From an uncultured Chloroflexota bacterium (GTDB lineage: Bacteria; Chloroflexota; Anaerolineae; Aggregatilineales; Phototrophicaceae), in the NCBI GenBank assembly GCA_903864435.1, contig CAIPFY010000044.1:1-47648 (forward strand): 47,648 nt of DNA, in the 5' to 3' direction. Below the pieces are notes generated by a model. The model was not told the origin of the DNA and searched no databases. It saw nothing but the letters and a program-made list of their open reading frames with translations. Below are positions 1 through 13,730 of this stretch, in pieces. The position numbers and the translations under genes were made by a program. Each line of letters starts with the position of its first letter. Position 1 is the first letter of the stretch.

Positions 1-730
1 AGCGCATCTGCACCTGCACGAACAGCGGTTGGCTCACCATGCCGAATACCACGAACAGCACCAGCGCAATCGGCAGCGTGGGCAGCACCACCAGCGTCAA
101 TTGCCAGTTGGTCGCCACCAGAATAGTCAGTGTCACCGTCAGCAGAATAAACGCCTGTGCCGCCAGTACCAGCCCTTGCGCGATGAACAAGCGCACCTTT
201 TCCACATCATCGGTGGCGCGAATCATCAATTGCCCGGTCTGATTCTGATCGTGATAGGTGAAAGATAGCCGCTGCACTTTGGCGAAAATCTCGTTACGGA
301 AATCGAACGCAATACCCTGCGACACCCGTTCAGACACATACGCCTGCACAAACGAGAACACCCCGCGCATAATCGCAAACACCACAATGAACACCGCCGC
401 ATTGATGAGCAGCGACTCCGCACCGGTTTGGTCGGCTTGCAGTTGTTCAATCGTTGTTCCTAACCGCTGCGCCACCGTCGGCTGAAAAGCCGCTGGCACC
501 TGCGTCAGGATCATATTGGCGGTTGTTCCCGAAGTAACCGCATTAATCATATTCTGGATCAATTGCGGCACCGCCAGCTGCGCTATACTGGCAACAATCA
601 GCGCACCATACGTAATCAGCGTATCGCGGCGATGCTTGCCCAGATACCGTATAGCCCGCCCTAAGCTCCCCGTCATCGGTGGCCGTTTGCCACCCGACTT
701 ACTCCACTGACCAGATGCTTGAGTTTGCAC
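1..730 (-). CDS. ABC exporter, membrane-domain half (3' end outside window)
   Basis: The 243 visible residues form the start of a type-1 ABC exporter with fused membrane and ATPase domains. They contain a cytoplasmic N-terminus, a first hydrophobic helix near residues 37-55, a second near 105-125, and a typical exporter membrane domain with the motif FRNEIFAKVQRLSFTYHD near residue 145, followed by GQLMIRATDDVEKVR. The ATPase half lies beyond base 1. I chose the GTG start at 728-730 because GGAGGGG precedes it by about 8 bases. It follows a MarR regulator gene by 87 bp in the same direction, a common arrangement for drug or lipid efflux systems controlled by their own regulator. The substrate cannot be told from this half. 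Confidence 0.85.
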   Translation of the reverse strand, partial: MQTQASGQWSKSGGKRPPMTGSLGRAIRYLGKHRRDTLITYGALIVASIAQLAVPQLIQNMINAVTSGTTANMILTQVPAAFQPTVAQRLGTTIEQLQADQTGAESLLINAAVFIVVFAIMRGVFSFVQAYVSERVSQGIAFDFRNEIFAKVQRLSFTYHDQNQTGQLMIRATDDVEKVRLFIAQGLVLAAQAFILLTVTLTILVATNWQLTLVVLPTLPIALVLFVVFGMVSQPLFVQVQMR

Positions 731-817
731 AGTGAATCCCCTCCCCAATAACTCCACAGTAGATACGAACCGAAAAAAACGATAAGACACACGCAGATCG
801 AACAAGCGAACGAGCGA

Positions 818-1282
818 TCATACTGGCGGGCCAATATTCCCCGTCGGGGCTTTCAACATGGCGCGTTCCAGTGCTTCTACAATCATGCGCTGTTCCTCCA
901 GCGGCAAAGACTCCAGCAGGCCAGTGACCGCTTGCAGGCGAATTGTCCTCATTTCGCCAATCTTGCACCGCGCTTCTTCGCTTAAGTACAACCGGGACAA
1001 CCGCGCATCTTCAGGATCAGGATGCCGGTCTACCAACCCCAGCGTGGTCATCTCTTTAACCGCAGTCGAGACCGCCGCCGGGGTAATCCCCATCGTTTCA
1101 GCCAATTCCTTCTGCACCATTCCCGGCTTGTTGTGCAGCAGGTGCATGGCGCGAATCTGGTTGTCGTTCAAATGACGATAGGCGGGCAACGGCGCACGTT
1201 TTTGCTGATCGGCAACCCGTTTGAAAGACTCTTCCAGCACACGCCAAAACCGATCCGCGAGTTCATCTGTCTCGGTACGCAT
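818..1282 (-). CDS. MarR-family transcriptional regulator
   Basis: A 154-residue protein of normal MarR length. MarR proteins are dimeric winged-helix repressors that usually lose DNA binding on meeting a small ligand. The helix-turn-helix core is visible as VQKELAETMGITPAAVSTAVKEM (about residues 56-78), followed by the wing with GLVDRHPDPEDARLSRLYL. The start is ATG at 1280-1282; only a weak AAGGG lies upstream. The ABC exporter follows in the same direction, so the two probably form one operon. The palindrome at 1340-1360 overlaps the predicted transcription start, which suggests autorepression. The ligand is unknown. Confidence 0.9.
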   Translation of the reverse strand: MRTETDELADRFWRVLEESFKRVADQQKRAPLPAYRHLNDNQIRAMHLLHNKPGMVQKELAETMGITPAAVSTAVKEMTTLGLVDRHPDPEDARLSRLYLSEEARCKIGEMRTIRLQAVTGLLESLPLEEQRMIVEALERAMLKAPTGNIGPPV

Positions 1283-1461: not shown

Positions 1462-1490
1462 TTGTTCAATCGGCTGCAAAATGCTATCAT
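1462..1490 (+). promoter_or_regulatory. Probable promoter of the ATP-grasp cluster
   Basis: TTGTTC, a 17-base spacer, then TATCAT, about 40 bases ahead of the chosen ATG at 1533. The fit to a sigma-70-type promoter is moderate. Confidence 0.5.
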
Positions 1491-1532: not shown

Positions 1533-2741
1533 ATGTCCACCGAGCAACAGACCACCATCCTCTGCATTTCCAGCTACTTCAAAGGTGAAGCCTTCCTGCG
1601 CCAGTGCAAACGCGAAGGCTGCCGCGTGCTGCTGCTAACCGAGGAAAAGATCGCCGGTGAAAATTGGCCGCGTGAAAGCATTGATGAAGTCTTTCTCATG
1701 CCCGATCTTTCGCGCACGCAGGACGTGATTAATGCCGTCAGCTACCTCTGCCGATCACAAATCATTGACCGTATCATCGCCCTCGACGAGTACGATGTCG
1801 AGAACGTCGCCACCCTGCGCGAACACCTGCGCCTGCCGGGGATGGGGCAAACCCCGACGCGCTTTTTCCGCGACAAGCTCGCCATGCGCATGAAAACCAG
1901 CGAAGGCGGCATCCCGGTTCCCCCGTTCACATCCGTGTTCAACTACGACCGCCTGCGCGAGTATATGGAGCGCGTCTCCGCCCCCTGGATGCTCAAACCC
2001 CGCACCGAAGCCGGCGCAATGGGCATCAAGAAAATCAACAACTCCGAGGAACTCTGGCGCTGGTTCGACCAGTTGGGCGATCAGCAGTCCGGCTTCCTGC
2101 TGGAGCAATATATCCCCGGCGAAGTGTTCCATGTGGACTCGATCATCTGGGATGGTCAAATACTGTTCGCCAGTGTGCAGCAGTACGGCAAACCGCCGAT
2201 GGATGTCGCGCATGGCGGCGGCATCTTCACCACCCGCACCCTCGCAGCAGACTCCGCCGAAGCCACCGCGCTCAAAACGCTCAACGCGCAGGTCGTCGGC
2301 ACGTTGGGGTTACAGCGCGGCGTCACCCACGCCGAGTACATCCAGAGCCGCGCCGATGGGCAGTTCTTCTTCCTCGAAATCGCAGCACGGGTAGGCGGCG
2401 CACACATTTCTGACCTGATTGAAGCCTCAACCGGCATCAATCTCTGGGCAGAATGGGCGCGTATCGAAATCGCCACCTTACAGGGTCAGCCGTATCAACT
2501 GCCCCCCATCTCCCACAAACACGGCGGCCTGCTCGTCTCGCTGGCGAAACAGGAACACCCGGACACCTCCGCCTACACCGATCCCGAAATTGTCTGGCGC
2601 TTGGACAAGAAAAACCATGTGGGGCTGATCGTCGTTTCCGATCAGCCGTCCCGCGTCGGTGAACTGCTGAACAGCTATGTAGACCGCTTCAGCAACGACT
2701 TCATGGCGGTCGCGCCGCCGAAGGACAAACCGACTCACTAG
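1533..2741 (+). CDS. ATP-grasp carboxylate-amine ligase (BacD/carbamoyl-phosphate-synthase-like)
   Basis: A 402-residue ATP-grasp enzyme. The family activates a carboxylate as acyl phosphate and joins it to an amine or other nucleophile. An N-terminal pre-grasp domain (about 1-110) is followed by the ATP-grasp fold: the LKPRTEAGAMGIKKI lysine/glycine-rich loop (K155), the LLEQYIPGEVFHVDS hinge with E191, and the metal-binding strands THAEYI (E268) and FFFLEIAARVGGAH (E282). This pattern is that of the ATP-grasp_4 group, which includes amino-acid ligases such as BacD. The frame is open back to 1383, but ATG 1533 has a GGGAG ribosome site and starts where the conserved domain begins. It is first in a five-gene cluster containing two more ATP-grasp enzymes. 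The substrate is unknown. Confidence 0.85.
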   Translation: MSTEQQTTILCISSYFKGEAFLRQCKREGCRVLLLTEEKIAGENWPRESIDEVFLMPDLSRTQDVINAVSYLCRSQIIDRIIALDEYDVENVATLREHLRLPGMGQTPTRFFRDKLAMRMKTSEGGIPVPPFTSVFNYDRLREYMERVSAPWMLKPRTEAGAMGIKKINNSEELWRWFDQLGDQQSGFLLEQYIPGEVFHVDSIIWDGQILFASVQQYGKPPMDVAHGGGIFTTRTLAADSAEATALKTLNAQVVGTLGLQRGVTHAEYIQSRADGQFFFLEIAARVGGAHISDLIEASTGINLWAEWARIEIATLQGQPYQLPPISHKHGGLLVSLAKQEHPDTSAYTDPEIVWRLDKKNHVGLIVVSDQPSRVGELLNSYVDRFSNDFMAVAPPKDKPTH

Positions 2742-2752
2742 CCAACCGGGCA

Positions 2753-2809
2753 GGCAGCGCCTTTTTATACTGTTTGAGAAACGATTCCAGTGGTATAAGA
2801 GGCGCTGCC
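2753..2809. repeat. Long imperfect hairpin between the first two cluster genes
   Basis: GGCAGCGCCTTTTTATAC pairs with GTATAAGAGGCGCTGCC across a 22-base loop, giving about 17 pairs with one internal irregularity. No T-run follows, so it is not a classic terminator. It could stabilise the upstream mRNA end, attenuate transcription, or hold back translation of the protease gene, whose ribosome site is weak. Confidence 0.6.
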
Positions 2810-2843
2810 AATCTCCTATCCATCTTGAGTATTGTCGGTGTCT

Positions 2844-3995
2844 ATGGGCTTGTTCATTCCAAATTTTCCATTCACCAATCACGATGAAGCGACTATCCTA
2901 CCCACCGTGCAGCGCGTGGGCGCACTACCTGACTATCGCGGGCGCGGCGTGGTCATGGCCTTTATTGACTCCGGTTTCTACCCGCATCCCGATCTTCAAA
3001 ATCGCATCCTGCTCCATGCCGATGCCTCCACCAACCACATCACCGAGCAAACCCATGACTTCGAGGTGAACGATCTGAGTTGGCATGGGCAGATGACCAG
3101 CGTCATCGCCTGCGGGGACGGTCAATCCTCGAACGGCCTCCACCGGGGAATTGCCAGCGAAGCCAATCTGGTGCTGGTCAAAGTCAGCACCCCCAAAGGA
3201 CTCATCAAAGAGACGGACATCCTGCGCGGCCTGCGCTGGGTTGCGGATACCCATCACCGCCTCAAGATTCGCATCGTCAACGTGTCCGTCGGGGGCGATG
3301 AGATCAGCCACGACCCCAACCACCCGCTTCACCGCGTCATCCGCAAGCTGACACGCGAAGGCGTGACCGTGATCGCGGCGGCAGGCAACCGCAGCGTTCG
3401 CCACCTGCTTCCGCCAGCCAGCGCCGCCGATGCCATCACAGTGGGCGGCATAGACGACCACAACACACTAGAACGCGAACGCTGGTCGCTTTACCATCAC
3501 AACTACGGCAACAGCTACGACGGCAGCACCAAGCCGGACATCCTCGCGCCGGCCATGTGGATCGCTTCGCCCATCCTGCCCGGATCGAGTGTTGCGCGGG
3601 AAGCGCACTGGCTGGGGCAGTTGCTAGGGCAGCAAGATCGCAACCGCGTATCCACCCTTCTCCAACAGGGCTACTCGGATTTAGGTCTGACACACGATTC
3701 CACCCACGCCCCCACCGATCACACGCTGCACATGCTTCAGCAGCGCATCCATACCCACAAAATCATCGGCCCGCACCATCAGCATGTGGACGGCACGTCG
3801 GTGGCCGCCCCGATCGTGTCCGCAGTCGCCGCGCAAATGCTGGAAGCGAACCCGCGTTTGACGACCCGCCAGATTCGCGCTATTCTGACCGCCACAGCCC
3901 AACCACTGCCCGGTCATGCTTCCGAACAGCAAGGCGCGGGTATACTCAATGCGGCAGGCGCAGTCCGCGCTGCCTTACAACAGATGGACAACTAA
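2844..3995 (+). CDS. Cytosolic subtilisin-like serine protease (S8)
   Basis: A 383-residue subtilase with the full catalytic set: Asp42 in AFIDSGFYPHPD, His81 in DLSWHGQMTSVIACGDG, the oxyanion Asn182 in IAAAGNRSVRH, and Ser319 in VDGTSVAAPIVSA. There is no signal peptide, no pro-domain and no C-terminal extension, so it is predicted to be an intracellular protease. An unusual insert of about 65 residues (roughly 245-310, rich in His and Gln) lies between the Asn and Ser motifs. In-frame TTG 2832, GTG 2838 and ATG 2844 are all possible starts. I took ATG; GTG 2838 fits the weak GAG upstream slightly better. It sits between two ligase/hydrolase genes, 6 bp ahead of the next, so a maturation or recycling role in that pathway is likely. 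Confidence 0.88.
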   Translation: MGLFIPNFPFTNHDEATILPTVQRVGALPDYRGRGVVMAFIDSGFYPHPDLQNRILLHADASTNHITEQTHDFEVNDLSWHGQMTSVIACGDGQSSNGLHRGIASEANLVLVKVSTPKGLIKETDILRGLRWVADTHHRLKIRIVNVSVGGDEISHDPNHPLHRVIRKLTREGVTVIAAAGNRSVRHLLPPASAADAITVGGIDDHNTLERERWSLYHHNYGNSYDGSTKPDILAPAMWIASPILPGSSVAREAHWLGQLLGQQDRNRVSTLLQQGYSDLGLTHDSTHAPTDHTLHMLQQRIHTHKIIGPHHQHVDGTSVAAPIVSAVAAQMLEANPRLTTRQIRAILTATAQPLPGHASEQQGAGILNAAGAVRAALQQMDN

Positions 3996-4001
3996 ACAGA
4001 C

Positions 4002-4721
4002 ATGAATCGAGAACATCACCGCTGGCACAGTCCTGCACTCAATCGCCCGATGGAAATGCTGGTATTCGGTCATGCGGGCGCGCGCGTCCTCATCTTCCCC
4101 ACCTCCAAAGGCAAGTTCTACGAGTGGGAAGATCGCGGCATGATGAACACATTAGGGGAATCCATCAACAACGGTTGGTTGCAAGTGTTCTGCGTGGACA
4201 GCGTGGACGCGGAAAGCTGGTACAACTACAGCCAGCACCCCGGCGCACGCGCCTATCGCCACGACCAGTATGATAGCTACCTCTATCATGAAGTTTTGCC
4301 CCTCACCCAGAGCAAAAACAGCAACCCCTTCCTCATAACCGTCGGCGCGAGTTTTGGCGCATTTCATGCCATGTCGTTCGGTCTGCGCCACCCCGACAAA
4401 GTAGACCGCATCATTGCCCTCAGTGGCCTATACGACATCCGCAGATTTACGGATGGCTACTCGGACGACAACGTTTACCGCAACAACCCGATGCAGTTCA
4501 TCGCCAACGAGCATGAACCGGGGCGATTGGCGCAATTACGCCACGTTGACATCATCATGGCGACCGGACGCGATGACCGTCTGATGCAAAGCGCCCGCGA
4601 CTTCTCCGGTTTGCTGTGGAGCAAAGGCATCGGCAACGCCCTGCGCGAATGGGATGGTTGGTCGCACGACTGGCAGTACTGGCAACAAATGCTGCTCATG
4701 TATATCAACGGACACGATTAA
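4002..4721 (+). CDS. Esterase-fold alpha/beta hydrolase
   Basis: A 239-residue protein of the putative esterase (esterase D/antigen 85-like) group. The nucleophile elbow is GASFGA with Ser117. Asp191/Asp192 in ATGRDDRL and His222 in WDGWSHDWQYW complete a plausible triad. The N-terminal strand VLIFPTSKGKFYEWEDRGM is typical of small cytosolic members. There is no signal peptide. It starts 6 bp after the protease gene, so the two are almost certainly co-transcribed. It might hydrolyse an ester or thioester intermediate or act as an acyltransferase. The substrate cannot be predicted. Confidence 0.85.
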   Translation: MNREHHRWHSPALNRPMEMLVFGHAGARVLIFPTSKGKFYEWEDRGMMNTLGESINNGWLQVFCVDSVDAESWYNYSQHPGARAYRHDQYDSYLYHEVLPLTQSKNSNPFLITVGASFGAFHAMSFGLRHPDKVDRIIALSGLYDIRRFTDGYSDDNVYRNNPMQFIANEHEPGRLAQLRHVDIIMATGRDDRLMQSARDFSGLLWSKGIGNALREWDGWSHDWQYWQQMLLMYINGHD

Positions 4722-4766
4722 TACACAAGTCCTTTCTATCGGCCTAATGTGTTACAGGAGTAGATC

Positions 4767-5732
4767 ATGGCGTCATCGAAATCAACAGAACCGCTGCGGG
4801 TGGGTTTATTCGTAGGGCGCGAATGGTCATGGCCGCCTGCGTTTATAGAAGAAGTCAACCGCCGCGACGAAGGTGTGGTGGCAGAATACGTCAAAATTGG
4901 GGGTTCGATGATGAACGAACCCTGTCCCTACCGCGTGATCGTAGATCGCATCTCCCACGAAGTCCCCTATTACCGTTCCTACCTGAAGAACGCGGCTCTG
5001 CAAGGCGTGAAGGTCATCAACGACCCCTTCATGTGGACGGCGGACGACAAGTATTTTGGCGCATCCGTTGCGGATCGCTTGGGCGTGATCTCCCCTAAAA
5101 CGGTTGCGCTGCCCAACAAGGAATATGTGCCGGGGATCGTCCACAACGAAAGCCTGCGCAACCTCGTCTACCCGATGGACTGGAACAAAATCGTAGACAT
5201 GGTAGGCGGAACGCCTTGCGTCCTCAAGGATGCGCACGGCGGCGGCTGGAAAGAAGTCTACGTGGTGCATTCCGTGTCGGAACTCATCTGGCGTTACAAC
5301 CAGAGTGGCCTGCTCACCATGATCTTGCAAGAGTACATCCAGTGGGATAACTACGCTCGCTGCATGTGCTTGGGGCAGGACGAAATCTACGTCATGAAAT
5401 ATGACCCCACCCAGCGCAAATACCACGACGAGCACGACTTCTCGCCCGAACTGTACGAGCGCATTGTGCGTGACTCGCGAGCGCTGGTGCAAGCCTTCGG
5501 CTACGACATGAACACCGTTGAATTTGCCATCAAGGGCGACATCCCCTACGCGATTGACTTCATGAACCCCGCCCCGGATATGGATGTCAACTCGCTAGGG
5601 CGCAAGCACTTCGACTGGATGGTGACGCACATGGCTGATCTGTGCATCCGTCTCGCCAAATCCAAAGAAGAAACCCGTTCGCGCTATCATTGGGGCAAAA
5701 CCAGCAAGCCCGCCAGCAAGAAGGCTAAATAA
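4767..5732 (+). CDS. RimK-like ATP-grasp ligase
   Basis: A 321-residue ATP-grasp protein of the RimK/glutathione-synthetase type. The N-terminal alpha/beta domain begins RVGLFVGREWSWPPAF. The ATP-grasp part shows CVLKDAHGGGWKEVYVV (K154 and the glycine loop), the hinge MILQEYI (E189) and the metal ligands E252 in NTVEFAI, D264 and N267 in YAIDFMNPAPD. RimK relatives add amino acids to protein or small-molecule carboxylates. The basic C-terminus ends with several Lys/Ala repeats. ACAGGAG lies about 8 bases before the ATG. The next gene follows 3 bp downstream. The acceptor and donor are unknown. Confidence 0.85.
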   Translation: MASSKSTEPLRVGLFVGREWSWPPAFIEEVNRRDEGVVAEYVKIGGSMMNEPCPYRVIVDRISHEVPYYRSYLKNAALQGVKVINDPFMWTADDKYFGASVADRLGVISPKTVALPNKEYVPGIVHNESLRNLVYPMDWNKIVDMVGGTPCVLKDAHGGGWKEVYVVHSVSELIWRYNQSGLLTMILQEYIQWDNYARCMCLGQDEIYVMKYDPTQRKYHDEHDFSPELYERIVRDSRALVQAFGYDMNTVEFAIKGDIPYAIDFMNPAPDMDVNSLGRKHFDWMVTHMADLCIRLAKSKEETRSRYHWGKTSKPASKKAK

Positions 5733-5735
5733 CCC

Positions 5736-7085
5736 ATGCCACAACAGGCGATTGACCGCTACCACGACATGCTGGACGATCAGATCGCTGCGGATGCCAG
5801 CGCAGACCTCTATGCACGCTTGCGTCCCCTCGGCTTGTATTTCGGGGATAGGCCGTTATGCACGGTCATTCGTCCCCACTTCTATCTGATGGATCAGTGG
5901 AACTACTTCAAGGCCGAAACCGAAATCCTGTTGACGGCTTTCGCACGCCTCCATGCCGCCTGTTTAGCCGATACCGATCTGCGTATGCAGCTCGATCTCG
6001 AAGCCTACGAGGAGCATCTATTCGGCGTGGACATTGGCAACGCCGTCCCTTGGACAACCTCCCGGTTGGACTCGTTCTTCGTCACCGAGGAACGCAAACT
6101 GTTCTTCGTCGAATACAACGCTGAAACCCCTGCCGGTATGGGTTACGAAGATGTTCTCTCCGAATTATTCATGACTCTGGAACCCATGAAGCAGTTCATG
6201 AAGTATTACGCCGTTCAAAGTATGCCCATGCAGAACAAACTGCTGGCGGTACTGATGCGCGGCTACCGCGATTGGGGCGGCATCGGAATGCCCAACATCG
6301 CCATCGTGGACTGGGGACACGTTCCCACGCTCAATGAACACCACATCATCCGCCACCACTTCAAGCAGCACGGCATGAATGTCATCCTTGCCGACCCCCG
6401 TCACCTCGAATATCGCAACGGTCATCTCTACAAAGATGATTTTCGTATTGATGTGATCTATAAGCGCGTGCTGTGCAGTGAACTGGTACACCAGATGGGG
6501 CAAGAAAACGCCATCGTGCGGGCTGTGCGCGATAAAAAGGTCTACATGACCAACTCGTTCAGCGCAAAATTACTCGCCAAAAAAGCCAGCCTCGCGCTAT
6601 TGAGCGACGAACGCAACGCGCACCTATTCGACAGCACCCAGCTTGCCGCCATCCAAGCGCACATCCCCTGGACGCGGCGGGTGAGCGAACGCAAAACGAT
6701 GTATCGTGGGCAAGAAGTTGATCTCGTCCCGTTCATCGCCGCCAACCGCGACCGCTTCGTACTCAAGCCAAACGACGAATACGGTGGTAAAGGGGTGGTC
6801 ATCGGTTGGGAAGCCAGCGCCGAGGACTGGAACGAAACCCTTCAGCAGGCGCTGAACGCATCCTATGTGGCGCAGGAACGGGTGGATGTGATCTACCGTG
6901 ATTTCCCGGCCTATATCGAAGGCAAACTCGACATCAGCCCGCGCTTTGTGGACGCCAACCCCTATGTGTTCGACGGTCACACCGTTCACGGTTGCCTCAC
7001 ACGCCTCTCCTCCGTCGCGCTGCTCAATGTGACGGCGGGCGGCGGCTCTGTCGTGCCGACGCTGCTCTTGCAGCCCCGCGCCTAA
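5736..7085 (+). CDS. Circularly permuted ATP-grasp enzyme
   Basis: A 449-residue protein in which the usual ATP-grasp order is swapped. The metal-binding segment FFVEYNAETPAGMGYED comes first (about 123-139). The ATP-binding lysine and glycine loop RFVLKPNDEYGGKGVVIG comes late (K344). The C-terminal end has LDISPRFVDANPYVF and LLNVTAGGGSVVPTLLL. This is the layout of the circularly permuted ATP-grasp group that includes glutathionylspermidine synthetase-like proteins. It closes the cluster, and its TAA overlaps the stop of the convergent BadF-type gene. It probably forms a further amide bond in the same product. Confidence 0.82.
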   Translation: MPQQAIDRYHDMLDDQIAADASADLYARLRPLGLYFGDRPLCTVIRPHFYLMDQWNYFKAETEILLTAFARLHAACLADTDLRMQLDLEAYEEHLFGVDIGNAVPWTTSRLDSFFVTEERKLFFVEYNAETPAGMGYEDVLSELFMTLEPMKQFMKYYAVQSMPMQNKLLAVLMRGYRDWGGIGMPNIAIVDWGHVPTLNEHHIIRHHFKQHGMNVILADPRHLEYRNGHLYKDDFRIDVIYKRVLCSELVHQMGQENAIVRAVRDKKVYMTNSFSAKLLAKKASLALLSDERNAHLFDSTQLAAIQAHIPWTRRVSERKTMYRGQEVDLVPFIAANRDRFVLKPNDEYGGKGVVIGWEASAEDWNETLQQALNASYVAQERVDVIYRDFPAYIEGKLDISPRFVDANPYVFDGHTVHGCLTRLSSVALLNVTAGGGSVVPTLLLQPRA

Positions 7086-7993
7086 CTCACGAGGGCGTCC
7101 AGCGCGCAAATCGCTGCGCCAATCAGTGCCGAATACTTCGGTTGCGGGATGCTGTCCAAACCCAGCATCCCGCACAGCATACGGCTCAACGGATTCGGCG
7201 CACTCAGCAGCCCGCCGAAGAAAGCCATCGGCAGCTTTTCCATATCCAGTTGATGCTGAACAGCCCGCACCGCCAGCAGCAGTTCATTCGCAGCCCGCCA
7301 CACGATTTCCAGCGCCACCGCATCGCCCTGTTCCGCCACCATGAGTACAGTGCGGGCTAATGCCGCCACATCTTTTGTGCGCACATGGTCGCCCTGATAA
7401 ATCCAGGGGACGACATCCAGCACGCTTTTCACGCCAATCTCCGCCAGAATCGCCTGTGTCAGCAGCGTTTTGCGTCCACGCCCATCATCCCCGCGCATGG
7501 CAGCACGCAGCCCTTCCATCCCCACCCAGAACCCGCTGCCTTCATCCCCTAGCAAATACCCTAGCGCACCCACCAGCTTGAATTCACCCGCCTGCCCGAT
7601 TCCACAGGCGAGGCTACCCGTGCCGGACAACACCAGTAAGCCGCGCCGCGCTCCGTGCGCCCCCACCAGCGCAATCTCATGATCGCCCGCTGGCGTTGCA
7701 ATCTTCGCTTCCGGCAGCACATCCGAAACCACCTCACGCAGCCACGCCTCGGCGTAAATCGCCTCCGCGCCCGCCACGCCGATTCCCGCCGACAACACAT
7801 CAACAGCGCCGCAACCAGCTGCCGTCAGCGCGTCCCGCATGACCGCTTGAATGGTCTGCTTCGCGTGATTTCGCCCCACCACATTCGGGTTGACCGTTGA
7901 ACCGGTCGCTTGCCCGATAATCGTCAAATCATCTGAAACGACCGCAGCCCGCACCGTGCTGCCGCCGCCATCAATCCCCATGACATAAACCAT
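7082..7993 (-). CDS. BadF/BadG/N-acetylglucosamine-kinase-type ATPase
   Basis: A 303-residue member of the ASKHA sugar-kinase/BadF family. Visible are phosphate loop 1 (GIDGGGSTVRAAV), phosphate loop 2 (VLSGTGSLACGI) and the GDEGSGFWVGMEGLRAA stretch typical of GlcNAc-kinase-like proteins. The C-terminal AFFGGLLSAPNPLS gives the adenosine site. Length and motifs fit a cytosolic kinase of an N-acetyl hexosamine or related sugar better than the iron-sulfur activator proteins, because the cluster cysteines are absent. It starts 6 bp after the permease gene ydcV, so it is probably the last gene of the polyamine-type transport operon, an unexpected partner. Its stop overlaps the stop of the convergent ATP-grasp gene. 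Confidence 0.8.
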   Translation of the reverse strand: MVYVMGIDGGGSTVRAAVVSDDLTIIGQATGSTVNPNVVGRNHAKQTIQAVMRDALTAAGCGAVDVLSAGIGVAGAEAIYAEAWLREVVSDVLPEAKIATPAGDHEIALVGAHGARRGLLVLSGTGSLACGIGQAGEFKLVGALGYLLGDEGSGFWVGMEGLRAAMRGDDGRGRKTLLTQAILAEIGVKSVLDVVPWIYQGDHVRTKDVAALARTVLMVAEQGDAVALEIVWRAANELLLAVRAVQHQLDMEKLPMAFFGGLLSAPNPLSRMLCGMLGLDSIPQPKYSALIGAAICALDALVS

Positions 7994-7999
7994 GTCGTA

Positions 8000-8827
8000 T
8001 TACCTGCCCTGAGAGTCGTTGGTAAATCGGTAGGCCAGCAAAATCGGGATGAACGTCGTCGCCATCACAAACAGCGCCGCCACATTCGTCACAGGCCGGT
8101 CACGCGGGCGGGTGAGTTGGCTGAAAATCCAGATCGGAAGCGTCTCCTGCTGTCCCGCCGTGAAGGTCGTCACGATCACTTCATCGAAGGACAGCGCGAA
8201 CGCCAGCATCCCACCCGCCAACAACGCGGTCGCAATGTTCGGCAAAATGATGTACCGGAACGTCTCAAATGAGGTCGCACCCAGATCCATCGAAGCCTCA
8301 ATCTGCGAGTATCCGGTTCGCCGCAGTCGCGCAATCACATTGTTGTACACGGTCACGATGCAAAAAGTCGCATGACCGATCACAATCGTCCAGAAGCTGA
8401 ACGATAGCCCCGTCAGGCTCATGCCTGAACGCAGCGCGATACCCGTCACGATACCCGGTAGCGCAATCGGTAGAATCACCAGCAGCGTAATGGATTCCTT
8501 GCCAAAAAAACTGCTCCGGTACAAGGCCAGCGACAACAGCGTCCCCAGCACCAGCGCCACCGCCGTCGCCACCAGTGCAACCAGCACGGATAGCCCGAAC
8601 GCATTCCAGAAATCCGTCCGGTTGAACAGTTCGCTAACCCAGCGAGTCGTCAGGCCGGGGGGCGGAAACTGGAACGATGACTCCTCGGTTGTGAACGCAT
8701 ACAAAATGATAATCAAGATCGGGAAGTGTAAAAACAGTAGCGCGAATCCCGCCGAGGCTTTCAGCCCCAACGATGCACGCTGCCCTTCCATCACAGGCGA
8801 CACAGAGAGGGCGGGACTAGAGCGCAT
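8000..8827 (-). CDS. ydcV: ABC permease, YdcV/PotC-like
   Basis: A 275-residue inner-membrane permease of the polyamine-type ABC family with about six membrane helices. The ATPase-contact loop is seen as IEASMDLGATSFETFRYIILPNI (about residues 185-207). The ATG at 8825-8827 overlaps the end of the preceding permease gene by 11 bases and has a GGGGGC ribosome site. A longer frame from TTG 8851 lacks support. Together with the other permease, ATPase and YdcS-like binding protein it should import a polyamine or related amine. Confidence 0.85.
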   Translation of the reverse strand: MRSSPALSVSPVMEGQRASLGLKASAGFALLFLHFPILIIILYAFTTEESSFQFPPPGLTTRWVSELFNRTDFWNAFGLSVLVALVATAVALVLGTLLSLALYRSSFFGKESITLLVILPIALPGIVTGIALRSGMSLTGLSFSFWTIVIGHATFCIVTVYNNVIARLRRTGYSQIEASMDLGATSFETFRYIILPNIATALLAGGMLAFALSFDEVIVTTFTAGQQETLPIWIFSQLTRPRDRPVTNVAALFVMATTFIPILLAYRFTNDSQGR

Positions 8828-9752
8828 CGAAAGCCCCCAATCGCTTAGCAACCACCAGATACACGCCCATAATCACCATCGGCACCACCGTGAACGCCGC
8901 CGCCAGTGGAATATTGCCCGCCGTCCCTTGCTGCGCGAACACCGCCCGCCCGATGAAAAAGCTCGAATTGCCGATCACACTGGGGATGATGTAATCGCCC
9001 AGCGTGAGCGAAAACGTGAAGATTGAACCCGCGATGATACCCGGAACAGTCAGCGGCAGAATCACCCGCCAGAAGGTGTAATTAGGCCGTCCGCCCAGAT
9101 CGCTAGAGGCTTCAATCAGCGACTTAGGAACACGTTCCAGCGCCGCATTAATCGGCAAAATCATGTACGGCAACCAGATGTATACGAACACCAGAAACAT
9201 GCCGATGAACGAAAACGACAGTGACGAACCGCCGATCAACGGGATCGCCAGAATAGCGTCCAGCACAGGCTTCAAGCCCAACACATTGAAAAACCATGTG
9301 ATGATGCCTTCCTGCGCCAGAATGATCTTCCACGTATACACGCGCACCAGATAGCTCGACCACAGCGGAATCAGCACCGCCAGATACAAAATCCCCCGCA
9401 CGCGGTATGACGCATAACGCGCCATGAAATAGGCCAGCGGGAACGCCAGCACCGCACAGGCCACGCTCACCACAGCCGCCATAATCACGGTGCGGTACAC
9501 CACATCCATATTGGCTGCGGTGAACAACTGCTGATACGTTTCCAACCCGAACTGGCGCACAATCCGGCCTGTAAACCCGTCCAGTTTGAAAAAACTCTGG
9601 ATGAGCAGAGACACCAGTGCGCCCAGATAAAACACCGCTAACCACAACAGCGGCAGCGCCAGCAGCAGCACCAGCGACAGATTAGGCCGCTGATACAGGT
9701 AGATCGCAACGCGCCGCCACCACGAAGGACGTGACGAAGCATCCCCGGTCAT
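8817..9752 (-). CDS. ydcU: ABC permease, YdcU/PotB-like
   Basis: A 311-residue permease with a long N-terminal cytoplasmic part, about six membrane helices and the EAA-type loop LIEASSDLGGRPNYTFWRVILP near residue 215 that docks on the ATPase. Its ATG (9750-9752) overlaps the TGA of the ATPase gene as ATGA, so translation is coupled. A possible start at 9794 inside the ATPase gene was rejected for that reason. The gene order ATPase-permease-permease matches ydcT-ydcU-ydcV of E. coli. Confidence 0.85.
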   Translation of the reverse strand: MTGDASSRPSWWRRVAIYLYQRPNLSLVLLLALPLLWLAVFYLGALVSLLIQSFFKLDGFTGRIVRQFGLETYQQLFTAANMDVVYRTVIMAAVVSVACAVLAFPLAYFMARYASYRVRGILYLAVLIPLWSSYLVRVYTWKIILAQEGIITWFFNVLGLKPVLDAILAIPLIGGSSLSFSFIGMFLVFVYIWLPYMILPINAALERVPKSLIEASSDLGGRPNYTFWRVILPLTVPGIIAGSIFTFSLTLGDYIIPSVIGNSSFFIGRAVFAQQGTAGNIPLAAAFTVVPMVIMGVYLVVAKRLGAFDAL

Positions 9753-10852
9753 ACAGTCTGCCCCTGTAACACGCGAATACTGGTCGTATCCCATGTCAAC
9801 TTCACCCGATTCCCGCGTGAGGCGTGAACATCTATCGAAGACGTTTCGAGGTTCTGTTGAACCACCGTCAAATCCCCGCCGCCTTCCAGTTCGACCAGAT
9901 AGCGCGTGTGCATCCCCAGATAAATCACATCGCGCACGCTGCCCATCACGGCTTTCCAGCCCGGTTCCACCGCTGCGTCCAGCGCCACCATGTGAATCTT
10001 CTCCGGGCGAATCGAAACCGCCTGATCCGATCCGTTGATTCGCTGCGCCAGCGCCCCGCTGATGAGATTAGTCGTCCCCACGAAACCCGCCACAAAGCCG
10101 GTGGTGGGGCGTTCATAAATCTCTGCCGGAACGCCAATCTGCTCGATTCGCCCCCGGTTGAACACCGCCAAACGGTCGCTCATCGTCAGGGCTTCTTCCT
10201 GATCGTGGGTGACAAAAACGAAGGTGATGCCCACCTGCTGCTGAATCGCTTTCAGTTCAATCTGCATCTGCTGACGCAGCTTCAAATCCAGCGCCCCCAG
10301 CGGCTCATCCAGCAGCAGCACACGCGGACGGTTCACCAGCGCCCGCGCCAGTGCCACCCGCTGCCGCTGCCCCCCCGAAAGCTGTGCCGGTTTGCGGCTC
10401 TCATACCCCGGTAAGCGCACTAAATCCAGCACCTCGGACACACGCCGCTGACGCTCCGCTTTCGGCACTTTCTGAATCATCAAGCCATACGCCACATTGT
10501 CGCCCACGCTCATGTGCGGGAACAGCGCGTAATCCTGAAAAACCGTGTTGACATCGCGCTCATACGGCGGCACGCTCACCAACCGCTGTCCGACTGTCAC
10601 AAAACCAATGCGCCTCGGCGCCCATTTCACCATCTCAACGCCATGCAGTTCAATGCTGCCAGAGGTGGCGTGTTCAAACCCGGCGATCAGCCGCAAACAA
10701 GTGGTCTTGCCCGACCCCGAAGGGCCGAGCAAGGAGAAAAATTCACCATCATAGATTTCAAGATCGAGATGATCTACCGCTTTAACATCGCCAAAATGCC
10801 GGCACACATCGGTCATTTTGACCGCGATGGAACGACCAGAATGGGCTGCCAT
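9749..10852 (-). CDS. ydcT: ABC transporter ATPase, YdcT/PotA-like
   Basis: A 367-residue ATPase of the polyamine/iron importer class. Walker A is GPSGSGKTT (43-51), the signature LSGGQRQRVALARAL lies near 145-160, Walker B is VLLLDEPLGALD, and the switch His is in FVFVTHDQEEAL. The extra C-terminal third, with ISGALAQRI and VSIRPEKIHM, is a TOBE domain as in PotA. It starts 2 bp after the stop of the aldehyde dehydrogenase gene. Confidence 0.9.
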   Translation of the reverse strand: MAAHSGRSIAVKMTDVCRHFGDVKAVDHLDLEIYDGEFFSLLGPSGSGKTTCLRLIAGFEHATSGSIELHGVEMVKWAPRRIGFVTVGQRLVSVPPYERDVNTVFQDYALFPHMSVGDNVAYGLMIQKVPKAERQRRVSEVLDLVRLPGYESRKPAQLSGGQRQRVALARALVNRPRVLLLDEPLGALDLKLRQQMQIELKAIQQQVGITFVFVTHDQEEALTMSDRLAVFNRGRIEQIGVPAEIYERPTTGFVAGFVGTTNLISGALAQRINGSDQAVSIRPEKIHMVALDAAVEPGWKAVMGSVRDVIYLGMHTRYLVELEGGGDLTVVQQNLETSSIDVHASRGNRVKLTWDTTSIRVLQGQTV

Positions 10853-10854
10853 AA

Positions 10855-12297
10855 TTATGCGTTCTTGACCATAACATGCTTGGTGATCTTGTAGTCCGAA
10901 ACCGCCTCGGCAGACAAATCCTTGCCGATGCCGGACTGTTTGAAGCCGCCATGCGGTGTTTCCGAAGTCAGCGGAATGTGGTCATTAATCCACACCGTGC
11001 CGAACTCCAGTTGAGAAGAAACGCGCATCGCACGTCCAATATCCCGCGTCCATACCGATGCCGCCAAACCATAGTTCACATCGTTGCCCAGCCGAATCGC
11101 ATCCGCCTCATCTTTGAACGTGCTGATCGTCAGCACCGGGCCAAAGACTTCACTCTGGATGATTTCCGCCTTCTGATCGGCATCCGCAATCACTGTCGGC
11201 TCGAAGAAATACCCGCTGTCCCGGCCACCCGGCACGCGCCCGCCCGTCAGGATGCTGGCACCATTCGCCTTCGCACGATCCACAAATCCCTGCACGCGCT
11301 CACGCTGAACGCCCGAAATCAGCGGCCCCATCTGCACGCCGTCATCAAACGGCAGGCCCACCTTCACGGCACGCATCGCCTCGACAAAGGCTTCGGTGGC
11401 ACGTTTAGCACGGCTGGCCTCCACATAAACCCGCGTCGCAGCCGTGCAGTCCTGCCCGGTATTCACGGTGCTGGTAAATGCTGCCGTGCCTGCAATCGCT
11501 TCCACATCCACATCATCGAACACGATGAACGGCGCCTTGCCGCCCAGTTCCAAATGCACCCGCTTCAGGGTATCAGCAGCAGTCCGCATAATCTTCTTGC
11601 CCGTGCCGGTAGAACCCGTCAGGCTGACCAGACGCACATCAGGATGTTCAACCAGTGCTTGCCCGACATCGGTCCCGCCCGTGACAATATTCACCACGCC
11701 CGCCGGAATACCCGCCTCCGCCAGCAGTTCAGCCAACAGCAGCGTGGTGAGCGGGGTTGTGGGCGCAGGTTTCAAAACGACGGTGCAACCTGCCGCCAGC
11801 GCCGGCCCAATCTTCCAGATCGCCATCATCAGCGGGTAATTCCAGGGCGTAATCTGCCCCACCACCCCGACCGGCTCACGACGATAAATCGAGGTATAGC
11901 CCTTCGCATACTCGCCAGATGAGTACCCGTGTGTATCGCGTGCCGCCGCCGCGAAGAACCGCAGATTATCCACCGCGAACGGCAGATCGCCGCCCAGACT
12001 CACGAATTGATACGGTTTACCCGTATTTTCCGATTCGAGTTTCGCAAATTCTTCTTTACGCGCTTCCAGTAAATCCGCCAGTTTCCAGATTGCCAGTGAC
12101 CGTTCAGCCGGAGTCAGCTTCGACCAGCGCCCATCATAAAAAGCGGTATGCGCCGCCTGCACCGCCCGATCCACATCCGCACGACTGGCGTCAATCACTT
12201 CGGCAATCACAACACCCGTCGCCGGATTCTCAATCGCCATCATCTTGCCACCCTGCGTATCCTGCCAGCGGCCCTCAATCCACAGCTTGTAAGTCAT
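10855..12297 (-). CDS. patD: Gamma-aminobutyraldehyde dehydrogenase (PatD/YdcW-like)
   Basis: A 480-residue NAD-dependent aldehyde dehydrogenase. The catalytic Cys is in NTGQDCTAATRVY and the general-base Glu in HLELGGKAPFIVFDD. VVGQITPWNYPLMMAIWKIG and the C-terminal TKHVMVKN closely resemble my recollection of E. coli YdcW/PatD, which oxidises 4-aminobutanal from putrescine to GABA. The ATG at 12295-12297 has GAGGAG 5 bases upstream; the frame is open further to 12324. Location between a YdcS-like binding protein and its transporter supports polyamine catabolism. In E. coli the same gene sits last in ydcSTUVW, so the order differs here. Confidence 0.88.
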   Translation of the reverse strand: MTYKLWIEGRWQDTQGGKMMAIENPATGVVIAEVIDASRADVDRAVQAAHTAFYDGRWSKLTPAERSLAIWKLADLLEARKEEFAKLESENTGKPYQFVSLGGDLPFAVDNLRFFAAAARDTHGYSSGEYAKGYTSIYRREPVGVVGQITPWNYPLMMAIWKIGPALAAGCTVVLKPAPTTPLTTLLLAELLAEAGIPAGVVNIVTGGTDVGQALVEHPDVRLVSLTGSTGTGKKIMRTAADTLKRVHLELGGKAPFIVFDDVDVEAIAGTAAFTSTVNTGQDCTAATRVYVEASRAKRATEAFVEAMRAVKVGLPFDDGVQMGPLISGVQRERVQGFVDRAKANGASILTGGRVPGGRDSGYFFEPTVIADADQKAEIIQSEVFGPVLTISTFKDEADAIRLGNDVNYGLAASVWTRDIGRAMRVSSQLEFGTVWINDHIPLTSETPHGGFKQSGIGKDLSAEAVSDYKITKHVMVKNA

Positions 12298-12330
12298 CAC
12301 AACTCCTCGCAATAACACTCTCATAAAACA

Positions 12331-12362
12331 GACACCTCGTCACCAGCAAAGCACGAGGTGTC
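12331..12362 (-). terminator. Hairpin attenuator between ydcS and patD
   Basis: Read leftward: GACACCTCGT, a 12-base loop, then ACGAGGTGTC, followed by TGTTTTATG. The 10-bp stem is perfect. It sits in the 119-bp gap after the binding-protein gene. Partial termination here would give more binding protein than transporter, as is usual for ABC import operons. It could alternatively protect the 3' end of the upstream mRNA. Confidence 0.7.
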
Positions 12363-12416
12363 CGATCAACCAGACAATTATCGGAACCCGCGAACGAGTT
12401 CCTTCCCGTTCAGAAC

Positions 12417-13607
12417 CTAGCGTCCGCCAATCACGGCGATATAGTTCGTCACCCATTCATAGTAGGGAACACACACCTGACCACGATCATCGCCGCAGTC
12501 CGCAATCGGTGTACGCCAGAAGTAAATCTTCTCGAACGAGCCGAAACCATTCGCTTCGCAACCGTTCTCGCCGAGCAAGTCGTTGCCTTCGCAGGCCGCC
12601 GGAACCGACGGCACCGAACCAAACCACGCCGCCAGATCGCCCTGCAATTTCGGGTTGATCGAATGCTCCAGCCACATATAGGCACAGTTCGGATGCGGCG
12701 CGTTGACGTGCATCATCGTGGTATCCGCCCAACCAGTCGCGCCTTCTTCGGGGAAAACACTATCAATCGGTTCGCCTGCCGCCTTGAGCAGATTCACCTG
12801 AAACGGCCACGATCCCGAAGCGACGATACCCTCATTCGTGAAATCATCAATCTGCACAAAAGCATCGTGCCAGTAACGGGCAACCAGTTCACGCTGCTGG
12901 CGCAGAAGATCGAGCGCCGCATTGAACTGGTCAATGTCGAGCGAATACGGGTCTTTAATGCCCAGTTCCGGGTTATGGTGCATCAGATAATTGGCGGCAT
13001 CCGCAATATGAATCGGGCCATCATACGCCTGCACGCGCCCCTTATTCGAGACGCCATCGCCTAGCGTCTGTTCCTCAAACACCACATTCCAGCTGGCGGG
13101 CGCTTCTTTGAATACTTCCGTGTTGTACATCAGAACATTCGGCCCCCACTGATAAGGAACACCGTAGTGTTCAGGAGTGCCGTTGCCGTCAATATCTACT
13201 GTATGCCACGCCGCATTTTGCAGGCGCTCATCCACCGTACTCCAGCTGGGGATCAAATCAATGTTGATCGGCTGCAACCGCCCGCCATAAGCAAGGCGCA
13301 GGCTGGCATCGCCCGAAGCGGTCACAAGGTCAAAAACGCCTTCGTTCATCAGCGCCACCATCTCATCGGAGGTCGCCGCCGTCTTAACGTTCACCTTGCA
13401 GCCCGTTTCGGCCTCAAAGCCCGTCACCCAGTCGTAAGCCGCATCCGTTTCGCCGCGTTCGATGTAACCCGGCCACGCCACAATGTCTACCTGCCCTTCA
13501 CCTGCCCCAACAGATGTCATCGGGCCGCTGTCCTGTGCAAAAGTCGCCGATGCCGACACGCCCAGCACCAGCATCATAACCCCAACCCACCCCATCAATT
13601 TCTTCAT
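12417..13607 (-). CDS. ydcS: Polyamine-type periplasmic/extracytoplasmic binding protein, YdcS-like
   Basis: A 396-residue secreted solute-binding protein. The signal peptide is about residues 1-25 (MKKLMGWVGVMMLVLGVSA, cleavage near TFA-Q). No lipobox is present. The mature protein begins with VDIVAWPGYIERGETDAAYD, then ETGCKVNVKTAATSDEMV and LVTASGDASLRL, and ends YIAVIGGR. This is very close to my recollection of E. coli YdcS along its whole length, including the paired cysteines. YdcS is the binding protein of the ydcSTUV transporter and has also been linked to polyhydroxybutyrate. ATG 13605-13607 has AAAGGA upstream; the frame is open to 13703. Confidence 0.9.
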   Translation of the reverse strand: MKKLMGWVGVMMLVLGVSASATFAQDSGPMTSVGAGEGQVDIVAWPGYIERGETDAAYDWVTGFEAETGCKVNVKTAATSDEMVALMNEGVFDLVTASGDASLRLAYGGRLQPINIDLIPSWSTVDERLQNAAWHTVDIDGNGTPEHYGVPYQWGPNVLMYNTEVFKEAPASWNVVFEEQTLGDGVSNKGRVQAYDGPIHIADAANYLMHHNPELGIKDPYSLDIDQFNAALDLLRQQRELVARYWHDAFVQIDDFTNEGIVASGSWPFQVNLLKAAGEPIDSVFPEEGATGWADTTMMHVNAPHPNCAYMWLEHSINPKLQGDLAAWFGSVPSVPAACEGNDLLGENGCEANGFGSFEKIYFWRTPIADCGDDRGQVCVPYYEWVTNYIAVIGGR

Positions 13608-13661
13608 CGCGTAATCCTTTACGAAATCGTTATATATTGAATACAAATGGCTACCCAACAG

Positions 13662-13690
13662 ATTATAGCAACGCTTGCAAATCCTCTCAA
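13662..13690 (-). promoter_or_regulatory. Promoter of the ydcS operon
   Basis: Read leftward: TTGAGA, 17 bases, TATAAT. The -10 box is perfect and lies about 55 bases ahead of the ydcS ATG, giving a leader of roughly 48 bases. Confidence 0.75.
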
Positions 13691-13730
13691 GTTGACTAAG
13701 CAAATATTCACTTTTTATGTCAAATCAGGG

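Follow-up and report, generated by a model that had tools for sequence, protein, structure and literature searches.

We propose, with a probability of about 60%, that a set of ligase genes shared by Chloroflexota and Gemmatimonadota specifies a stepwise, ribosome- and NRPS-independent pathway in which successive ATP-dependent ligations yield a small amide- or peptide-like metabolite. This reading is favored by the conserved ligands of three ATP-grasp enzymes (A, D, and E) and by the way C, D, E, and a YbdK-like gene, Y, stay linked and occur together in genomes. Carriers of the gene set probably make a peptide-like compound. As far as we have found, this conserved amide-ligase set of two phyla is uncharacterized; nothing on it appeared in the accessible parts of PMC8939145 and PMC6282198 or among the papers listed for YgiC/YjfC.

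The locus lies in a 47,648-nucleotide stretch of DNA from an uncultured Chloroflexota bacterium (the window). Five plus-strand genes, A to E, occupy positions 1533 to 7085 with intergenic gaps of 102, 6, 45, and 3 bp in the list of open reading frames (ORFs), and these coordinates agree with the order and spacing given in the original prediction. The features are as follows.

2 to 805, minus strand: partial ABC exporter half (PF00664), cut by the window edge
818 to 1282, minus strand: MarR-family regulator, divergent from A
1340 to 1360, no strand: palindrome TTAGTTAA-n5-TTAACTAA, a likely MarR operator
1482 to 1490, plus strand: extended -10-like element TGCTATCAT upstream of A
1533 to 2741, plus strand: A, BacD/L-amino-acid-ligase-like ATP-grasp ligase (ORF open from 1383)
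2844 to 3995, plus strand: B, S8 subtilase with triad D42/H81/S319 (ORF open from 2832)
4002 to 4721, plus strand: C, PF00756 esterase with nucleophile S117 and H222
4767 to 5732, plus strand: D, RimK/LysX-fold ATP-grasp ligase with metal site E252 and D264-x-x-N267, without a Pfam match
5736 to 7085, plus strand: E, circularly permuted ATP-grasp ligase (PF14403) with a glutathione-synthetase-like fold

The extended -10-like element supports the start of A at 1533; of 11 regions compared, 10 have the pattern TGnTATnAT ahead of A. Pfam analysis of A gave a match to ATP-grasp_4 (40.1 bits; cut-off, 27). Its nearest relatives were the L-amino acid ligases 4wd3, BL00235, and BacD, with which it shares the ATP-grasp region, including an E-x-A/G-x-R-type motif and the two metal glutamates. 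A is not an orthologue of BacD, the alanine-anticapsin ligase, since it scored 20.7 bits against an NCBIfam equivalog cut-off of 850. Residues K155, E191, E268, E282, and R286 were present in 51/51 sequences (51 of the 52 family members aligned).

D matched no Pfam model at an E value of 0.1, those of the RimK and ATP-grasp families included. Its predicted structure (mean pLDDT, 92.8) is an ATP-grasp fold nearest ArgX and RimK and also close to LysX, and on this model D is a member of the RimK/LysX fold group. It shares with these enzymes the fold (TM-scores of 0.56 to 0.66 by query length, for a predicted model) and the ATP and metal ligands but differs in having 15 to 17% identity to them, a third metal motif of D-x-x-N rather than E-x-N, and no Pfam match. 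Among 174 aligned sequences (of 177), K154 was kept in 172, E189 in 168, E252 in 173, D264 in 169, and N267 in 173. A plasmid search with D returned no match, and one with E returned 10 records, every one below 60% identity.

E matched CP_ATPgrasp_2 (PF14403) at 48.2 bits (cut-off, 32), and residues R110, D112, E126, N128, and K344 were found in 153/153 sequences (153 of 160 aligned). The predicted fold most resembled human glutathione synthetase, 3n6x, and homoglutathione synthetase; Cp1B, YjfC/YgiC, and GspS ranked lower. The fold thus appears common to eukaryotic-type glutathione synthetase, Escherichia coli YjfC/YgiC, and fungal Cp1B. The R-x-D and E-x-N motifs of YjfC align with those of E. 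For Cp1B, the motifs of E were matched, by spacing rather than by a printed alignment, to the four residues at which substitution abolished or weakened activity according to the accessible part of PMC12568646. Identity between E and the known ligases (glutathione synthetase, YjfC/YgiC, and Cp1B) was 10 to 17%, and the agreement of E with glutathione synthetase is one of predicted fold. The family assignments originally made for all five genes were borne out, by Pfam scores or, for D, by predicted structure. The ATP lysine and Mg ligands of A, D, and E were conserved in aligned relatives, as expected of three genuine ATP-grasp ligases, and a check for their loss found them kept in the alignments of all three.

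B matched Peptidase_S8 at 132.2 bits, and no signal peptide was evident in its sequence. H81, N182, and S319 were present in 36/36 sequences and D42 in 34, with gaps in the other 2 (36 of 46 aligned), in keeping with the intact triad described earlier. We considered and rejected a role for B in IetAS anti-phage defense: B matched the PADLOC subtilase (8.5e-20) and IetS (2e-8) models, yet no AAA+ domain was found in the 7 genes scanned. C matched the esterase family PF00756 at 39.1 bits (cut-off, 22); its S117 and H222 were present in 121/121 relatives, and the likely acid, D192, was present in 109.

Co-occurrence was assessed in 301 Chloroflexota genomes, in which D was found in 79, E in 72, C in 70, and Y in 117. 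Among the 79 genomes with D, 68 had E, 67 had C, and 70 had Y, and 60 had all four genes; C was missing from 12, E from 11, and Y from 9, some of these genomes being fragmented or carrying distant D homologues. Fisher tests take no account of shared ancestry. Gene order was read from 78 stretches representing 77 of the 79 D genomes (the window's own genome and G172 were left out), with D called in 76. Locus genes were called with a home-made codon score that ignored ORFs below 60 amino acids and labeled by similarity cluster, and some loci were short or cut by contig ends. E was the next gene after D in 59/76 loci, with an operon-like median gap of 15 bp across those 59, and C lay near D in at least 36/76, a lower bound because divergent copies of C fall outside the similarity cluster. 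In Gemmatimonadota, 64/121 genomes passed an E value of 0.001 and 34 (centre genome included) matched below 1e-38; in the 20 of these 34 that were used, E was present in 18 loci (directly after D), a C26 peptidase in 17, Y in 16, C in 15, and a second esterase in 13.

These counts uphold a neighborhood conserved beyond chance but redraw the five-gene cluster of the original prediction. The wide unit is C-D-E plus Y, and the full A-B-C-D-E order, whose conservation across Chloroflexota was the check originally suggested, was seen in close relatives only. A and B are local additions: A stood beside D in 2/76 loci of the Chloroflexota draw and 5/20 Gemmatimonadota loci, versus 31/80 of the nearest loci, and B was present in 1/76 and 0/20, versus 44/80. 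The nearest loci (L031 to L110) are the best 80 of 174 matches and so are biased toward near relatives. Several amidoligases and peptidases lie together in a conserved neighborhood. Iyer, Abhiman, Burroughs, and Aravind reportedly described multi-amidoligase operons in 2009 that likewise contain several nonribosomal peptide ligases and peptidases of unrelated folds per neighborhood.

Y (PF04107) matched YbdK (1r8g) at 1e-75 and plant GCL at 3e-6. Two of three Y proteins scanned exceeded the cut-off of 371 bits for the YbdK-like carboxylate-amine ligase model PRK13515 (L073, 532 bits; L107, 509 bits), while that of L181 fell below it and exceeded PRK13517.1-3 instead. Y of the PRK13515 type occurs in relatives, but neither the window nor the rest of its genome has it, and no Y was found in 14/18 queried relatives. 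In the window genome, A stands at the head of the operon. PF04107 was missing from all 13 of the genomes queried in which A lies in line ahead of B-C-D-E (four of the 13 being partial or distant A matches: G035, G054, G127, and G159) but present in 4 of 5 others, in which A was inverted (2) or did not appear in the locus (3); this fits A standing in for Y. On a tree of D (73 of 173 sequences; bootstrap not settled), the A label clustered no more tightly than expected from shuffling (7 changes against a mean of 7.7 over 500 shuffles, 130 of which were as low), which counts against one clean replacement of Y by A, and loci carrying both A and Y exist.

The reactions of A, D, E, and Y are assigned by fold and family, from which we infer the following order. 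The first amide bond would be formed by Y in most D genomes or by A in the window's clade, the second by D, and the third by E, each ligation having an acyl phosphate intermediate. The precedent of their families suggests that Y would act on glutamate, activating its gamma-carboxylate, that D, in the manner of RimK/LysX, would use a Glu-like carboxylate, and that E would act on a short peptide, as glutathione or peptidyl-polyamine synthetases do. C might strip an acyl or gamma-glutamyl group off an intermediate, a role that the second esterase and the C26 gamma-glutamyl-hydrolase-type peptidase of relatives could share. As originally suggested, B and C may act in trimming or releasing the product.

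The presence of Y, a member of the glutamate-cysteine ligase family, beside an enzyme with the eukaryotic glutathione synthetase fold would also suit a pathway to a low-molecular-weight thiol in Chloroflexota and Gemmatimonadota, in which D and E extend a gamma-Glu-Cys-type backbone; we consider this improbable. Decidedly doubtful is its fuller form, in which C-D-E-Y makes the main thiol of Chloroflexus, other Chloroflexota, and many Gemmatimonadota through a YbdK-type start, RimK-fold and glutathione-synthetase-fold extension, and a PF00756 S-acyl (formyl-type) hydrolase, with a BacD-like first ligase in the window's clade. The accessible part of a commentary (PMC6336425) reports that GSH was absent in surveyed anaerobes and that Chloroflexus aurantiacus was among the organisms found to contain novel thiols; the accessible part of PMC6282198 does not mention Chloroflexus. 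The bacillithiol synthase BshC was found in 0/79 D genomes (3/14 control genomes were positive), although its absence may be phylum-wide, as the test covered D genomes only. COX1 exceeded its cut-off in 77/79 D genomes versus 54/74 without D (every third of 222; P = 1e-5), a difference confounded by phylogeny. PF04107 is not specific, being present also in 47 genomes without D and in 5/14 control genomes, and A, B, and the exporter are left unexplained. Since the window genome has no Y, we keep a thiol as a rival and have dropped it as the main claim. A redox thiol would answer what Chloroflexus uses instead of glutathione; any other product would be a candidate for a protein tag or for a new peptide metabolite made independently of ribosomes.

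The enzymes closest to D in fold, RimK, LysX, and ArgX, modify protein C-termini. D and E, with Y or A, could accordingly add amino acids to the end of a protein or to one of its side chains, with B, C, and the C26 peptidase removing the tag. Two kinds of peptidase with unrelated folds (S8 and C26) are found repeatedly beside the ligases in different clades. We regard protein tagging as unlikely: the substrates of characterized relatives of E and Y, some of them described in the accessible portion of PMC12568646, are small molecules, and an esterase and exporter fit it less well. Moreover, no small family of at least 60 amino acids that could serve as acceptor recurred across clades, each being found in at most 7 loci within subclades. 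The same result bears on the idea of a graspetide-like RiPP whose precursor peptide went unnoticed. The graspetide ligases AMdnB, PsnB, and MdnC were among the fold matches of D, B gave a weak score with the model of the cyanobactin protease PatA, and Nif11-like peptides lay near the cluster in five loci. The last were limited to one gene order, however, and no precursor gene was seen in the gaps of the window operon. The largest of these leaves little room for one, so a product without a ribosomal precursor, as first proposed, is the better reading and a graspetide is highly improbable.

Downstream lie ABC importer genes (one BPD_transp_1 gene and one SBP_bac_8 gene were scanned) and an aldehyde dehydrogenase. 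A polyamine acceptor was considered on this account and set aside as a mere hint, since these genes occur in some close relatives and not in other clades and the polyamine type was judged by eye. In 6 loci a PurB-like lyase follows downstream of E; one member exceeded the adenylosuccinate lyase cut-off, and the lyase was taken as housekeeping.

Upstream, ABC exporter halves were found in 14/24 relative loci listed as ABCDE type (the window's own fragment fell under the threshold used there), and a MarR gene had the same place and orientation in 10 loci of close relatives. In the window's clade, the product of the stepwise pathway may be exported by the neighboring ABC pair under MarR control. 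The palindrome lies closer to the MarR gene than to the A promoter, which counts against assuming MarR control of A to E. It occurs once in the window, versus 0.03 sites expected, and 10 to 12 of its 12 positions were kept in 11/11 MarR-A regions, whereas 0 to 2% of shuffles did equally well.

The five forward-strand genes of the original prediction were recovered at the same positions, with gaps of 102, 6, 45 and 3 bp (none in the operon above 102 bp). The features of the window discussed here are as follows:

2-805 (-), ABC exporter half
818-1282 (-), MarR gene, divergent from A
1340-1360, palindrome
1533-2741 (+), A, BacD-like ATP-grasp ligase
2844-3995 (+), B, S8 subtilase
4002-4721 (+), C, PF00756 esterase
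4767-5732 (+), D, RimK/LysX-fold ligase
5736-7085 (+), E, circularly permuted ATP-grasp
7082-7993 (-), gene for a BadF/BcrA-type ATPase, on the opposite strand to E and sharing 4 bp with its end
8000-13703 (-), genes for ABC importer components (by eye, of the polyamine type) and an aldehyde dehydrogenase, transcribed towards E

Pfam and NCBIfam assigned A to the ATP-grasp ligases, B to S8, C to PF00756 and E to PF14403, as had been proposed. Ten of 11 related regions have an extended -10-like site 5' of A, which supports an A start at 1533 rather than 1383. D matched no Pfam model at E 0.1. Its RimK-like nature was instead corroborated by its predicted structure (mean pLDDT, 92.8), for which the best solved structures found by Foldseek were ArgX, RimK and LysX, at 15 to 17% identity. 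In a profile alignment with D-Ala-D-Ala ligase, D264 and N267 of D coincide with the E-x-N metal motif, given a one-residue insertion.

The predicted structure of E (mean pLDDT, 92.7) best matched human and potato glutathione synthetases, 3n6x (a putative glutathionylspermidine synthase) and soybean homoglutathione synthetase; fungal Cp1B, YjfC/YgiC and GspS ranked lower. R110-x-D112 and E126-x-N128 of E align with YjfC and have the same spacing as R139/D141 and E163/N165 of Cp1B; replacing those Cp1B residues abolished or weakened its activity (PMC12568646). The nearest matches to A are the L-amino acid ligases 4wd3 and BL00235, together with BacD, and an E-x-A/G-x-R-type motif is common to all four. 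Alignments show the catalytic ligands to be conserved. Loss of ligands from the three ligases had been named as a point against the prediction; the catalytic residues of A, D and E, and likewise those of B, are retained by almost every full-length relative available. The serine and histidine of C are invariant (121/121), and at the position of the likely acid 109 have Asp.

The gene set conserved across Chloroflexota is not the same as the window's five genes. Within a draw of 301 genomes, matches were found to D in 79, E in 72, C in 70, PF04107 (the YbdK-like ligase Y) in 117 and A in 13 (9 strong), all 13 A genomes also having D. D overlapped with E in 68 genomes, with C in 67 and with Y in 70 (Fisher p ~2e-50 for D-E and for C-D, uncorrected for shared ancestry). 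PF04107 also occurs outside the set, being present in 47 genomes without D and in 5 of 14 control genomes. The expected five-gene co-occurrence held for D followed directly by E (59 of the 76 stretches in which D was called; median gap, 15 bp) and failed for B (1/76) and A (2/76). Y lay within 47 of these stretches and C within at least 36. B was present in 44 and A in 31 of the 80 nearest loci of genome_contigs (the best 80 of 174). Y exceeded the PRK13515 cut-off in two of three loci scanned, and Y of locus L181 scored above that of another model of the same family. The portions of the literature available to us on ATP-grasp amidoligases, YbdK ligases and Gemmatimonad/Chloroflex clusters gave no account of the C-D-E-Y set, and an earlier description is possible.

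D-like genes also occur in a second phylum, Gemmatimonadota. Among 20 neighbourhoods there, D was followed by E in 18. Of the same 20, 17 contained a C26 peptidase (PuuD/gamma-glutamyl-hydrolase type, from a scan of one member), 16 contained Y, 15 C and 13 a second PF00756 esterase. A-like ligases were present in five, as pairs or triplets.

A tree of D, built from 73 of 173 sequences, placed the window within an 18-row set (support, 100/100). Y was seen in the locus of none of the 18 rows, some loci being short. PF04107 had no match in the window genome (completeness, 94.5%) or in 14 of 18 close-relative genomes. Y was absent from each of the 13 queried genomes in which A sits in line ahead of B-C-D-E and present in four of five with A inverted (two) or not seen in the locus (three). 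We infer that A takes the place of Y in the window's clade. Some loci contain both A and Y, and the A label clustered on the D tree no more than shuffled labels, which counts against a single clean swap of Y for A.

The pathway would most likely proceed by successive acyl-phosphate ligations, with D, E and either Y or A as the ligases, to a short amide chain whose assembly needs neither ribosome nor NRPS. Trimming or deprotection of the chain would fall to C and, in relatives, also to the C26 peptidase, and B would cleave some peptide or protein. The order of steps, substrates and product are our proposal from the families involved. The importer/aldehyde dehydrogenase stretch is partly conserved in close relatives, and its genes might supply an amine.

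Alternatively, the conserved set might make the novel thiol of Chloroflexus aurantiacus. Newton and Rawat report GSH as absent in surveyed anaerobes and novel thiols in C. aurantiacus among others (PMC6336425). Y belongs to the glutamate-cysteine ligase family, E has a predicted glutathione synthetase fold, and bacillithiol synthase BshC was found in none of the 79 D genomes, the genomes covered. COX1 exceeded its cut-off in 77/79 D genomes versus 54/74 sampled others, a difference confounded by phylogeny. In one genome (G118), D and E are adjacent; C and a PF04107 gene lie at other sites. The window genome, however, is without Y, and we regard a thiol product as improbable.

The divergent MarR gene is common to 10 relatives. 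The palindrome TTAGTTAA-n5-TTAACTAA retains 10 to 12 of 12 positions in all 11 MarR-A regions; since it is closer to MarR than to the A promoter, its control may extend to MarR and the exporter only. Of 24 relative loci classed as ABCDE-type, 14 have ABC exporter halves. Their differing places (divergent next to MarR, 10; upstream in line, 2; downstream, 2) suggest a functional tie.

Genes for Nif11-like leader peptides (assigned by eye) lie upstream of inverted A in L041, L043, L044, L045 and L047 (~1500-2700). Several loci from a single family (L123, L127-L132 and L186) have an XRE-type HTH gene of 120 to 127 aa (named by eye) immediately 5' of D. Recurrent small gene families (>=60 aa) spanning clades were not found; those seen occupied at most seven loci, within sub-clades. 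Cluster copies resembling those of Chloroflexota, probably mis-binned, occur in records titled Bacteroidetes and Pleurocapsa minor (L034 and L059). In L181, L182, L217 and L218 a divergent D is accompanied by three BacD-like genes and by a family of proteins 256-352 aa long; one member scanned (L182) had no Pfam match at E 0.001, and from a motif seen by eye we take the family to be S51/cyanophycinase-like.
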